Part shown: in pieces, positions 11,834 to 20,120 of the stretch
How the letters are laid out: every line of letters starts with the position of its first letter
Numbering within the stretch: the first letter of the stretch is position 1
Origin: a virus
DNA: 35,346 bases
IMG/VR virus record: IMGVR_UViG_3300030104_001085
Coordinates: 1 to 35,346 of that record
Reading direction: 5' to 3' (one strand)
Notes under the pieces: model-generated
What the model saw: the letters and a program-made list of their open reading frames with translations, nothing else
What the model was told of the DNA's origin: nothing
Database searches by the model: none
Translations under genes and position numbers: made by a program

Positions 11834-12469
11834 CTATGTTTCTTCTACATCTGGTAGGTATTTGTTTTTTACTTTACCACCCATCTGCTTCCAAATTTCT
11901 AGCTGATAGAATCTTCTAGATGTTTTTATCAACCAGTCCCTATGTTCGATATACATCGGCTGACATATATCAATGAAGTCTTTAGGCAGCGGCAACCTAG
12001 GGTAAGTATAGGTAGTGAGCAACTGATGTGTTGCTTCTTCTATACAAAACCTAGGGTACTGCTCTAATAGATTGAAGTACTGGGTTAAACCAAAGTCATC
12101 TGGAACTTTGCATTGAAAGGTAGAGGCAATAGTCTCAAGTGCTATTGCTATGTCTTCTCTCTTGCAAGGTTCCATCTGGACTACATACTTCTGACACATA
12201 TCAAGTGCAACGTCATCAATCCCTTTGTTTAGTGGGAAGTCGTTTGACACTCCCATTGACTGTTGAATCTCTTGACTTCGCAACTCTAAGAATACGCTTC
12301 CGTCTATTCGAAACATTAGAGGTATTTGTTTCAGTATGTCCTGATTCTCTAACTCCTCTTGATCTCTCGTACTCATCGGCACGCCTAATCCAGTTTCGGA
12401 AAGCTGCTTCCCAATTTGCTGATACACCTCCATTGCTGAGGTAATAGTCAACGAATTTTTCTTGTTCAT
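11834..12469 (-). CDS. Putative replication/helicase-loader-like protein (start uncertain)
   Basis: The frame runs 211 aa from ATG 12469, but the first 254 nt lie inside the DnaT-like gene in another frame. An internal ATG at 12256 would give 140 aa and reduce the overlap to about 40 nt; no strong Shine-Dalgarno decides. The C-terminal two-thirds is an all-helical domain (MCQKYVVQMEPCKREDIAIAL, YFNLLEQYPRFCIEEATHQLL, YPRLPLPKDFIDICQPMYIEHRDWL). This resembles the helical domain found next to DnaT/O-like proteins in many phages, where the second gene often recruits host DnaB. Function is inferred from position. A frameshift fusion with the upstream gene is an alternative. Confidence 0.55.
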   Translation of the reverse strand: MNKKNSLTITSAMEVYQQIGKQLSETGLGVPMSTRDQEELENQDILKQIPLMFRIDGSVFLELRSQEIQQSMGVSNDFPLNKGIDDVALDMCQKYVVQMEPCKREDIAIALETIASTFQCKVPDDFGLTQYFNLLEQYPRFCIEEATHQLLTTYTYPRLPLPKDFIDICQPMYIEHRDWLIKTSRRFYQLEIWKQMGGKVKNKYLPDVEET

Positions 12470-12560
12470 ATTGTATATCTACTCCTGGAAAGAGTTCAGT
12501 CATGCGCTCTAATGTCGCATGACTTGGTACCCAATCCTCACTTATTTGTTTCTTGCTCAT
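12216..12560 (-). CDS. DnaT-like DNA-binding domain replication protein
   Basis: A 114-aa protein. Residues 35-66 (EKFVDYYLSNGGVSANWEAAFRNWIRRADEY) match the DnaT C-terminal domain pattern: an F-YW helix, variable loop, then W-A-FRNW-RRA. This domain binds single-stranded DNA in primosome assembly and is common in phage replication initiators. The N-terminus (WVPSHATLERMTELFPGVDI) is the usual lead-in, and the tail is basic (NRRKRILRVAKSR). It starts 23 nt inside the previous gene and shares 254 nt with the maximal loader-like frame. No polymerase, primase or helicase gene is present, so it probably brings the host replisome to the phage origin. Confidence 0.72.
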   Translation of the reverse strand: MSKKQISEDWVPSHATLERMTELFPGVDIQYEQEKFVDYYLSNGGVSANWEAAFRNWIRRADEYERSRGVRESGHTETNTSNVSNRRKRILRVAKSRDSTVNGSVKRLPTKQRD

Positions 12561-15498: not shown

Positions 15499-15810
15499 TT
15501 ACTTACAGAATGCTAGACATTCCTCTAATGTATATTCATTCTCTTTAAAGAACTTATCTCTTTCAATCGTCAAACCAAGTGGTAAATCTATGCTCTTGAT
15601 TTCATCAATGGATACTGAACCCATCTCTGGACATCCAAGGTCACAAACTCCAAATCCTATATTGTTATCTGGATCTAATTCTGATAAGTACCATGTACCT
15701 ATACCAACTGGATTGAATAACTTAACTACAGCTTTGAATGATTTACTACCATCTTGTTTTTGATGATTATCTATCAGCTTTTTCATTTGTGTTTCTGTTA
15801 TTAGTTTCAT
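15499..15810 (-). CDS. DUF2958-family protein
   Basis: A 103-aa protein with the clear DUF2958 pattern: KAVVKLFNPVGIGTWYLSELD, NNIGFGVCDLGCPEMGSVSIDEI and LPLGLTIERDKFF. The family occurs in phages, plasmids and conjugative elements, usually among early or accessory genes; its activity is unknown. Length and both ends match the family, so the gene looks intact. ATG 15810 has AGGAG upstream, following the long-loop inverted repeat at 15841-15914. Confidence 0.85.
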   Translation of the reverse strand: MKLITETQMKKLIDNHQKQDGSKSFKAVVKLFNPVGIGTWYLSELDPDNNIGFGVCDLGCPEMGSVSIDEIKSIDLPLGLTIERDKFFKENEYTLEECLAFCK

Positions 15811-16435: not shown

Positions 16436-16774
16436 CTAGCTTACTTTTTTGTATCTGCTATCAAGATCAGCTCGACACTCTTGTGCAATGACATCAATAC
16501 CAAGTTCTAGCATTTTGTTTCGTTGCATATGAGCATTAGCATGCAATCTATCTTGATTAGCCGAATATCTTCTGACTATGGGTTTACCATAAGCGTCGGT
16601 CTGAGGCTTATCAAGATTATTACATATGCTAAAATTTCTCTCAAAGAGTCTCGCATACATATTCTCAACAGCGTTAAGAACATATATTCTGATGTCATCT
16701 TGACCAGTTAATTGGTCTAGTTCTGACTCTTTGAGTATAATATCAACCAGTTTATTTACTTTTTCGTTGTTCAT
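16436..16774 (-). CDS. Hypothetical protein, 112 aa (first gene of the leftward block)
   Basis: Not recognised. A 112-aa helical protein (KVNKLVDIILKESELDQLTGQ, DIRIYVLNAVENMYARLFERN, then NQDRLHANAHMQRNKMLELGI and a basic end). It is the gene closest to the divergent control region, so probably the first expressed. ATG 16774 follows AGGAG (16785-16781 on the minus strand), directly abutted by a 5-bp GC-rich hairpin that could limit ribosome access. Early phage genes in this position often act on the host, but nothing here shows that. Confidence 0.68.
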   Translation of the reverse strand: MNNEKVNKLVDIILKESELDQLTGQDDIRIYVLNAVENMYARLFERNFSICNNLDKPQTDAYGKPIVRRYSANQDRLHANAHMQRNKMLELGIDVIAQECRADLDSRYKKVS

Positions 16775-16785
16775 AATGAACTCCT

Positions 16786-16798
16786 GACGCTGAGCGTC
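16786..16798 (-). promoter_or_regulatory. Leader hairpin abutting the Shine-Dalgarno of the first leftward gene
   Basis: GACGC (16786-16790), TGA, GCGTC (16794-16798) is a perfect 5-bp, GC-rich hairpin. On the minus strand its 3' arm runs straight into AGGAG at 16785-16781, 6 nt before ATG 16774. It could modulate initiation or protect the 5' end. Short, so tentative. Confidence 0.45.
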
Positions 16799-16830
16799 GT
16801 TATTTATTTAATTACAAAGAGTTTTATTTA

Positions 16831-16965
16831 CTCAATGCAAGACAGTAGCTATCACACTTTGAGGATGTGTCAAAACCGACGCAAACAAAAACAAGACAAA
16901 GAGATTGCGTCGATTCACTTTGTTTTGACACACCGCAGACGTGTGATAAATTACATAGCATTGAG
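16831..16965. promoter_or_regulatory. Nested four-pair inverted repeat: divergent control region, possible origin
   Basis: Four pairs of exact inverted repeats nest around a T-free 20-nt centre (16885-16904). They are CTCAATGC 16831-16838 / GCATTGAG 16958-16965; TATCACAC 16850-16857 / GTGTGATA 16941-16948; TGTGTCAAAAC 16866-16876 / GTTTTGACACA 16922-16932; and CGACGCAA 16877-16884 / TTGCGTCG 16905-16912. Read outward on each strand the order is the same: TTGCGTCG, GTTTTGACACA, 8 nt, GTGTGATA, 9 or 11 nt, GCATTGAG. It lies between the leftward and rightward blocks. It could be a pair of matched promoters with operators, a replication origin, or a packaging signal. Confidence 0.85.
16925..16952 (+). 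promoter_or_regulatory. Rightward promoter candidate in the nested repeat
   Basis: TTGACA (16925-16930, perfect -35), a 16-nt spacer, then TAAATT (16947-16952, 4 of 6 for -10), preceded by TGTGA. RNA would start near 16960 and carry the small hairpins at 16977-17006 in its leader before the terminase small subunit gene. The mirror copy on the minus strand (TTGACA at 16873-16868) has a poor -10 (TAGCTA), so the two sides may differ in strength. Confidence 0.45.
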
Positions 16966-16989
16966 AAAAAAAAACCCCAACTTGGTTGG
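16966..16989 (-). terminator. Leftward intrinsic terminator-like hairpin with U9
   Basis: On the minus strand CCAAC (16989-16985), loop CAA, GTTGG (16981-16977), GG, then nine T (16974-16966). A second hairpin, GCGAGC/GCTCGC (16993-17006), lies just upstream. The stem is short but the U run is long. No minus-strand gene lies to its right, so it would stop antisense or read-through transcription before the early block, or end a small leftward RNA. Confidence 0.45.
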
Positions 16990-17055
16990 ACAGCGAGCTT
17001 GCTCGCACAAAAAAAAGAAATAGAATAATATTGCCGACTCTGTTATATATAAACA

Positions 17056-17412
17056 ATGGCTATAAGCAATAAAGCAAAGCTACTTGTAGATACTATCGTA
17101 GCTAAGGGATGTACTATAACAGAGGCGTCAAAGCTCGCTGGATACAAGGGTGTGTCTAGCCGTGTATCTGCCTCTAGGATGCTACATAAACCAGAGGTAC
17201 AAGCGTACATGATGCAACAAGTACAGAAGAAGATAGCACTAGGCAGTACTAAGGCTATCAATACCATTGTTAATCTATCTGATGGTGCGAACTCAGAGTA
17301 TGTACGTCTTGAAGCTAGCAAGGATATCTTAGACCGTGCTGGATTTAAGGCTCCAGATAAGCACCAACATCTTATAGATGGGAACTTTAGTATTAACATT
17401 GACCTAAGTTAG
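17056..17412 (+). CDS. Terminase small subunit (TerS-like)
   Basis: A 118-aa protein with the helical terminase small-subunit layout. An N-terminal helix-turn-helix (LLVDTIVAKGCTITEASKLAG, YKGVSSRVSASRMLHKPEVQ) is followed by a helix for oligomerisation (MMQQVQKKIALGSTKAINTIV) and LEASKDILDRAGFKAPDKHQ, typical of Terminase_2-type TerS. It should bind the packaging site and load TerL. It is the first gene of the rightward block; TerL follows five genes later. No clear Shine-Dalgarno precedes the ATG (TATATATAAACA), so initiation may be weak or nearly leaderless. The 172-nt non-coding stretch after it could hold the packaging site. Confidence 0.82.
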   Translation: MAISNKAKLLVDTIVAKGCTITEASKLAGYKGVSSRVSASRMLHKPEVQAYMMQQVQKKIALGSTKAINTIVNLSDGANSEYVRLEASKDILDRAGFKAPDKHQHLIDGNFSINIDLS

Positions 17413-18368: not shown

Positions 18369-20120
18369 ATGCCACTACCACTTATCCCAATTATTGCTGG
18401 CGCTGCTCTTAGAACAATAGCTCGTAAAGCAATCCCTAAGCTACTAAAAACAGCCAATATTGGAACACTAGGATATGTAGGATATGATGCTGCAAAAGAG
18501 GCAAAAAAGGGCAATTATGAGCCTCTAGGAGATTTAGCTCAATCCTACCTATTAAGAGGTGCTCCTACATTACTCAAAGCAAAAGGCGCAATAGTAATTG
18601 ATAAAAGTGTAGGCAAAGTTAGAAAAGATAAACAAACCTATATCAAAGAAGCAACTACAGATCCATTATCAAAAGGTAAAGTAGTATTTGATGTTAAAGG
18701 AGATTACACTCCAGCAAAAGTTAATGTCCAATCTTATAATTATCAACGAACAGGTTCTAAAGGAACTAGAAGAAATATTGCAGATACACAACGTTTATAT
18801 CGAGAAAGTGTTAAAAGAGATGTCCAGAGAACAGGTGCCTATACTAAAGATATAAAAATTGATGAGGTACAAGCTATAGCAGAAAGGAGAGCGGTTGCAA
18901 CTGGTGTAAGAAGAGAGATTAAAGATGCTGAAAAACGTGGAGATCCATATACAGAATTTTTTATGCCAGCTAAAACTAGTAAAGCATCATCTAGTAATAT
19001 TTGGTGGAGTTCTGGTGAAAATAAAGCATTAAGTAATCTAGCATTGAGACCTTTTAAGTATCAAGGAAAAGAATATAAAACAGTAGAACAAGCTTATCAA
19101 ACTTTAAAAACTGGAAAATTTGATGAAGCTATTTATTCTAGACAATGGAAAGAGGGCGTTAAAATAAGAGGTGGTAAGGTAAATAAAAATATTAGTGATC
19201 AACTAATGAAAGATTTAATAAAGGAATCTTTTAAACAAAATCCTAAAGCATTAGCAAAACTTAAAGAAACAGGCAGTACAACATTAACTCATAGACAAGA
19301 TAAAGGACATTGGGGTACAAAATTTCCTGAAATTCTTACTGAAATAAGAGGAAGCACTAGTAATAAAACTCAAGCAAAAGTAACAACAAACGCTGAAACT
19401 GTACTAAGAAGATACCTTAAAAGATTTTTTCCAAGTGTAAAAGTAACAGATGTTAAAGCAACAAAAGCAACTACTAAGCTAGCAAAAAAAGGATCTGGAG
19501 GTACAGATGTTACTAAGATTGATACTCCACAAGAAACATTAGATAAAGCTGATGCATTGTCTACTGTTGCTAAATACACATATGCTAAAGATAGAAAGAC
19601 AGGTAAAGGTATTTTTGTAGATAATCCGTTTTCAAGGAATGTAGGTGTCCAATATCAAAATATTGTTGGTAGAGATGCTACAAAAAATATAATACAAACA
19701 GAAAATATAATTAAACAAACCCCAACATCAAGAGCATTAAGCTATATAAGATTTCTAGCTAAGAGCAGTAAGACCAAAGGATTAGATAATAAAATAATAA
19801 CCAATATTGGATCTGGTATACCATTAATGGACGATTATGGAGTAGCCTTATTAAGAAGGGAATTCAGAAAAGATGCTAGTAACGTTGGCAAAATAACACT
19901 TAAAAAAGGTCTTAAACAAGGAGATATTGATGTAGCTAGAGCAGCAATGACTAAAGTAGGAGGCACAGGTACAAGAAAAAATGTAGGTGCATATAAAAAA
20001 TTTGGAGGTCCTTATAGCCCAGTCAATAGATCGAAAGAACCTAATGTTGATGCTGCTGCTTTAAGAAAATTATTTGCTGGATATTTTAATAGAAATAAAC
20101 CTAAAAAACCTAAGAAATAA
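18369..20120 (+). CDS. NADAR (YbiA-like) domain protein, 583 aa
   Basis: A 583-aa basic protein. Residues 1-75 contain amphipathic or hydrophobic helices (PLIPIIAGAALRTIARKAIPK). Residues about 210-327 fit the NADAR/YbiA fold: NKALSNLALRPFKYQGKEY (the LSN-F core), YKTVEQAYQTLK (Y-S/T-E-H/Q-AYQ), a variable middle, MKDLIKESFKQNPKALAKL, ETGSTTLTHRQDKGHWGTKF (TG-L-HWG). NADAR enzymes act on ADP-ribosylated or NAD-related substrates; some remove ADP-ribose from DNA guanine, reversing DarT-type toxins. The C-terminal 250 residues are unknown and Lys-rich. Its place between terS and terL is unusual for a free enzyme and suggests late expression or packaging. Domain call fairly firm; anti-defence role inferred. 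Confidence 0.72.
   Translation: MPLPLIPIIAGAALRTIARKAIPKLLKTANIGTLGYVGYDAAKEAKKGNYEPLGDLAQSYLLRGAPTLLKAKGAIVIDKSVGKVRKDKQTYIKEATTDPLSKGKVVFDVKGDYTPAKVNVQSYNYQRTGSKGTRRNIADTQRLYRESVKRDVQRTGAYTKDIKIDEVQAIAERRAVATGVRREIKDAEKRGDPYTEFFMPAKTSKASSSNIWWSSGENKALSNLALRPFKYQGKEYKTVEQAYQTLKTGKFDEAIYSRQWKEGVKIRGGKVNKNISDQLMKDLIKESFKQNPKALAKLKETGSTTLTHRQDKGHWGTKFPEILTEIRGSTSNKTQAKVTTNAETVLRRYLKRFFPSVKVTDVKATKATTKLAKKGSGGTDVTKIDTPQETLDKADALSTVAKYTYAKDRKTGKGIFVDNPFSRNVGVQYQNIVGRDATKNIIQTENIIKQTPTSRALSYIRFLAKSSKTKGLDNKIITNIGSGIPLMDDYGVALLRREFRKDASNVGKITLKKGLKQGDIDVARAAMTKVGGTGTRKNVGAYKKFGGPYSPVNRSKEPNVDAAALRKLFAGYFNRNKPKKPKK

Follow-up and report, generated by a model that had tools for sequence, protein, structure and literature searches.

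A long inverted repeat beside the terminase small subunit gene of SAR11-type phages may be kept for its folded shape

Why would a phage genome carry four nested pairs of inverted repeats at the very point where its leftward and rightward gene blocks part? We addressed this question in IMG/VR record IMGVR_UViG_3300030104_001085, in which the whole stretch analysed (35,346 nucleotides, hereafter the window) is a complete circular phage genome with a 99-bp direct repeat common to both ends. Judged by its proteins, the window phage is a relative of Pelagibacter phage EXVC031P Hodr, with a terminase large subunit 81% identical and a head-tail connector 79% identical to the Hodr counterparts; the Hodr record itself (OQ414635.1, our locus L108) has locus tags reading EXVC032PBaldr, a possible labelling mix-up in the deposit. 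The inverted repeat sits between a leftward gene for a 112-aa protein, for which a structure search returned no PDB relative, and the rightward terminase small subunit gene, terS (Table 1). The leftward block encodes an SSB, a RecE/YqaJ-type exonuclease and a DnaT-like replication protein (12216-12560), while genes for packaging and for structural proteins lie in the rightward block. Two other neighbours gave domain matches, a leftward gene with a clear DUF2958 domain (15499-15810) and a 583-aa protein between terS and terL (18369-20120) with a weak NADAR-domain match under the Pfam cut-off, and no LexA-like protein was found among the window ORFs scanned. Directly ahead of the terS start, the sequence TCTGTTAT (17038-17050) is kept in loci L029, L031, L033 and L034 despite their unrelated arms. 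Since no SD is visible before terS, its mRNA may be leaderless or near-leaderless.

The original prediction placed four nested inverted pairs in 16831-16965, around a 20-nt centre devoid of T, with a 9-nt insert on one side only and unequal outer spacers of 11 and 9 nt, and we recovered every one of these features at the expected positions. Gapped alignment carries the arms outward to 16821 and 16975, and the centre between them is asymmetric. The inverted-repeat score is 36, whereas the highest value reached when the intergenic region was shuffled 4000 times with its dinucleotides kept was 31, and 16821-16975 was the top inverted repeat in a scan of the genome, with nothing else in it coming close. 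The repeat had also been held not to be a palindrome produced by assembly, and rightly so: related contigs carry the element at the same place, as does the cultured phage Hodr in a far longer version, which rules out an assembly artefact. Inward-facing terminator-like hairpins flank the element on both sides, as if transcripts running around the circle were to be kept out of it. A small hairpin, GACGC-TCA-GCGTC, lies in the leader of the leftward gene (16779-16799), immediately before the SD; its core, GCGTCG, recurs in the innermost blocks of the repeat, and relatives of the L168 type have a hairpin at the leader position in other letters (GCCGAGG...CCTCGGC).

Table 1. Features of the inverted-repeat locus and its neighbours; positions are those of the window unless a locus is given.
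Feature	Position	Strand	Remarks
Leftward gene adjoining the element	16436..16774	-	112 aa; SD AGGAG; all-helical model; without known family
Terminator-like hairpin on the left side, inward-facing, shortly before the SD of the leftward gene	16785..16799	+	Consensus match only
Left arm, read outward: GTTTTGACACA-N8-GTGTGATA-N11-GCATTGAG and A/T-rich tail	16821..16876	-	44/58 columns identical to right arm
Block GCATTGAG, left copy	16831-16838	-	Invariant in window and three relatives
Block GTGTGATA, left copy	16850-16857	-	
Block GTTTTGACACA, left copy, includes TTGACA	16866-16876	-	
Innermost left block TTGCGTCG	16877-16884	-	Invariant in window and three relatives
20-nt centre, T-less; apical loop of predicted fold	16885-16904	+	Length and sequence vary among relatives
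Innermost right block TTGCGTCG	16905-16912	+	Invariant in window and three relatives
9-nt insert ATTCACTTT, one side only; bulge in predicted fold	16913-16921	+	
Right arm, read outward: GTTTTGACACA-N8-GTGTGATA-N9-GCATTGAG and A-run	16922..16975	+	
Block GTTTTGACACA, right copy, includes TTGACA	16922-16932	+	
Sigma70-type promoter match TTGACA-16-TAAATT, TG ahead of second hexamer	16925..16952	+	p about 0.02 vs shuffles
Block GTGTGATA, right copy	16941-16948	+	
Block GCATTGAG, right copy	16958-16965	+	Near the start expected, from the promoter match, for a right-arm transcript
Terminator-like hairpin, T9 tail, inward-facing from the right	16976..16990	-	Letters vary among relatives, stem kept
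Terminase small subunit gene (terS)	17056..17412	+	
Core GGGCGTTCGGCTTGYCCGAATCCCCCGAAGCC	L263:1495-1525; L265:4863-4893; L267:1513-1543; other loci among L264-L270		

The locus had been read as an inverted duplication whose blocks were kept while its spacers drifted, and alignment of the window with three relatives (L025, L026 and L027) bore this out. All eight blocks are invariant, with 0 of 70 block columns varying compared to 17 of 65 spacer columns (Fisher p 1.2e-6), and the arrangement is kept in these close relatives, including the 8-nt gap between the two inner blocks in all arms of the family. The blocks of both arms appear to be under constraint. Blind copying from one arm to the other fails to explain this family, because the spacers of the left and right arms differ from each other while the blocks are identical and invariant. 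A search of IMG/VR for the pattern TTGACACA-N8-GTGTGATA returned 24 matches, paired in four only, and we set the single matches aside as looking like chance or ordinary promoters. The predicted fold of the window region (-53.7 kcal/mol, z -9) is what would be expected of any strong inverted repeat. Since this family is very uniform and offers too few changes for covariation, the structural reading of the window copy rests on its kinship with more distant phages.

To follow the element through these phages, we started from terS and gathered 161 terS-upstream regions from IMG/VR loci, the window and Hodr. Among the 65 non-redundant regions, which share ancestry and are not fully independent lineages, 52 contained an inverted repeat scoring above all 100 shuffles and 13 had no significant long repeat, compared to 3 of 61 downstream control regions exceeding all shuffles. 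The related phage MEP301 is without the repeat. The arms reach 250 nt and more, with 203 of 277 columns identical in Hodr and 229 of 304 in L131, and in the long-armed lineages they extend 100-250 nt into coding sequence. There, the left arm is made up of the leftward gene's leader and start. The right arm mirrors it without coding: in inverted orientation it repeats the leader, the ribosome-binding site, the start codon and the first codons, with indels that break the frame. The proposed inverted duplication is thereby seen in relatives as an inverted copy of the beginning of the leftward gene; in the window, the detectable copy ends within the leader. Hodr-like phages have a sigma70-type terS promoter inside the mirror copy, and in the Hodr element (L108:11656-12560) this promoter, TTGACA-17-TATACT, falls within the mirrored coding sequence of the leftward gene, so it seemingly arose from copied coding DNA. 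We found no relevant report of inverted repeats or hairpins in pelagiphages in the open-access literature.

Pairwise scores between lineages revealed that the arms turn over in sequence while staying matched to each other. Compared with one another, the two arms of a lineage give scores of 36 to 119, whereas the same arm compared across different lineages usually gives a background score (about 25-35), close sister lineages excepted, as expected. The genes on either side are better kept, with terS 65-98% identical across phages whose arm sequences are unrelated and the leftward gene recognisably homologous over 22 loci. At this site most relatives have the same foldable shape in different letters, an indication that the structure has a function and is no chance repeat. 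When we compared 14 pairs of related loci, none overlapping another, both arms had changed at 47 positions (9 expected), and complementarity was restored in 68% of these double changes, as against 32% in a slid control. Loci L041 and L042 differ by five concerted changes within 25 nt and few one-sided ones, and concerted changes extend to the outer arm and into the coding part. One-sided breaks in pairing are nevertheless common, and over all within-group pairs the one-sided changes displayed no clear preference between G-T (303) and A-C (275). The arms differ by many small indels and few substitutions, with 1.49 mismatches per indel between left and right arms, 2.92 between right arms and 6.37 between left arms; the low left-right value is the pattern of stems with bulges.

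Covariation in the relatives was then measured against the predicted fold. Seven aligned sequences of the Hodr group share a 99-pair fold that is closed by a long helix and contains an apical hairpin as well as a short one to the side, with 93.5% of cells paired. Two-sided change affected 27 of the 99 pairs, beyond what was seen in either shuffled alignments (mean 9.3, 0 of 500 as high) or slid structures (at most 10), and it affected 4 of the 6 pairs of the side hairpin, which lies outside the mirror. These compensatory changes point to a folding structure in preference to promoters. Loci L165, L159 and L174 have the same kind of branched top, and their arms, which have diverged, surround a 32-nt core, GGGCGTTCGGCTTGYCCGAATCCCCCGAAGCC, that hardly varies. 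The core is found upstream of terS in every contig that retains the flank. Exact matches to it occur in eight IMG/VR contigs of one sub-clade, at the branched top of the element. A search of Rfam gave no family match in the window or 14 relatives, and no sequence motif shared by the centres stood clearly above shuffles.

Over 44 lineages, 173 mismatches between the arms would be G-U on the + strand and 61 on the - strand, with 25 lineages showing an excess on the + strand and 4 on the - strand. A first count in 20 lineages had resembled a composition effect, but the excess held in 44 lineages after correction for composition (1.65-fold; bootstrap 95% interval 1.1 to 2.6). The + strand RNA also folds to a lower energy in 37 of the 44 lineages, while the window and its close relatives display no strand preference. 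The wobble bias and the better folding of the + strand point to a single-stranded + strand form of the element, which we regard as supported but not settled.

Together, these findings lead us to favor, at a probability of roughly 0.55, a reading in which the window copy is a conserved long-hairpin fold-back element of a SAR11-type phage clade, situated between the leftward gene and terS and acting through + strand secondary structure. We infer that the window copy belongs to the clade element from its position, neighbours and form. Selection would then act on the structure of the + strand, whether RNA or single-stranded DNA, and recognition would be by shape and not by sequence, such that the blocks would serve as stems, the spacers as internal loops, the 9-nt insert as a bulge and the T-less 20-mer as the apical loop. 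In our judgement, the most likely use would be as a shape-recognised control site at the divide of the two gene blocks, for example as a processing or stability hairpin in a rightward RNA running into terS; the main alternative use would be as a single-strand start site. A rightward promoter from which the + strand RNA could be made was looked for to the left of the left arm, and none was detected. RNase III processing hairpins of T7-like mRNAs are RNA hairpins that tolerate sequence change upstream of phage genes, and the element resembles them in both regards, but its arms are far longer (60-280 nt), its top is branched and one arm overlaps the start of the opposing gene. More tentatively, we propose that the relatives define an undescribed class of large, branched and shape-conserved SAR11-phage fold-backs that would be read as single-stranded + strand nucleic acid, be it structured RNA or DNA; one arm would be the start of the opposing gene and the other a continually re-matched mirror of it.

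The original prediction also raised the possibility of matched divergent promoters, in which each arm would supply a -35, an extended -10 and a start-site block, with shared operators allowing one phage factor to control the leftward gene and terS. We consider this unlikely, although part of it stands. The right arm of the window is a good sigma70 match and may be used as a promoter, the inner blocks fall on the -35 and TGN-TA positions, and both the constant 8-nt gap and the invariance of blocks over spacers in the window family are in keeping with such a use. The location is likewise that of divergent sigma70 promoter regions with inverted operators, which are intergenic between divergent genes. 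The weak point is the matching of the two sides: the left arm of the window has a poor -10 (TAGCTA), and across the clade a sigma70 signal at p<0.05 was present in 0 of 44 left arms, 6 of 44 right arms and 18 of 44 stretches just before terS, where terS would have a promoter of its own, all scored with a general sigma70 matrix that could miss a SAR11-specific promoter type. Between terS and the leftward start codon, a leftward sigma70 promoter was found no more often than by chance (1 of 42). Since left arms lack the signal and right arms have little of it, matched divergent promoters are an unlikely general explanation. Promoters would also not need arms that enter coding sequence, and they leave the covarying side hairpin unexplained.

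Less probable, in our estimation, is that the element is an old inverted duplication with little or no function, a quasi-palindrome whose arms are kept alike by template switching or by hairpin-based correction. Template switching is known both to homogenise the arms of inverted repeats (PMC8604942) and to give rise to hairpins and preserve them (PMC8794818), and the quasipalindromes it leaves resemble the phage element in their imperfect inverted repeats, concerted arm changes and multi-base matched changes. Concerted change between arms is indeed what we observed, reaching the outer arm and the coding part, and substitutions are matched while indels are left in place. However, homogenisation of spacers along with blocks was not seen in the window family, where the spacers of the two arms have gone separate ways, and the phage repeat is fixed at one site in most of the clade (52 of 65 lineages) and spans a gene start. 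The strand-specific wobble, the side hairpin that covaries in the Hodr group and the conserved core set it further apart and suggest selection. Within the fold-back reading that we prefer, the matching of the arms was probably helped by template switching between them, and part of it could be mutational with no selection involved; that selection has acted besides is suggested by the invariance of the blocks and of the core, by the strand bias and by the side hairpin.

We assign low odds, below those of a neutral repeat, to the element being a single-strand start site, at which the + strand hairpin would prime synthesis of the complementary strand or serve the leftward gene as a folded single-strand promoter. 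The single-strand origins (sso) of plasmids and Frpo, the single-strand promoter of the F plasmid, are long imperfect hairpins of one strand in which shape matters and sequence varies, and a start site of this type would work similarly. The phage hairpin is likewise long, imperfect and conserved in shape with variable letters, and over the clade its mismatches are strand-biased. The phage encodes a DnaT-like replication protein together with an SSB, and no double-strand sigma70 promoter was found for the leftward gene. On the other hand, the host of this element is a double-stranded DNA phage in which no rolling-circle initiator was recognised, and single-stranded intermediates, like the function itself, are putative.

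A bidirectional replication origin or a packaging (pac/cos) site beside terS, both in line with suggestions of the original prediction, is in our view very unlikely. The cumulative GC-skew minimum that had been anticipated is real and lies at 16-17 kb, but the skew changes sign only where gene direction switches, with no turn opposite the site. Since the skew follows gene direction alone, it lends no independent support to an origin, and we rejected it as evidence for one. A link of the DnaT-like gene to the site is putative, and the region of that gene contained no iterons of at least 14 nt. As for packaging, the element adjoins terS, and 9 of 43 contig ends (IMG/VR loci L025-L104) fall within 150 nt upstream of that gene, above neighbouring bins. 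This enrichment would mean either that the upstream sequence varies or that the DNA physically ends there, and the ends cluster on the terS side and not at the repeat centre. Reading of the arm sequence by TerS is improbable, because phages whose TerS proteins are almost alike have unrelated arms. Telomere resolution sites of N15-like phages are also nested inverted repeats at a single site, but we dismissed such a site here given that the window centre is asymmetric and no protelomerase was recognised among the window ORFs scanned.

SAR11 phages are among the most abundant marine viruses, and little is known of their gene control. A clade-wide element with a stable fold and changing letters points to a recognition step between two gene blocks that is independent of sequence. 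The element also lends itself to measuring how the arms of an inverted repeat remain matched when one of them must encode protein as well, and since the cultured phage Hodr has a clear and long version of it, direct testing is possible.
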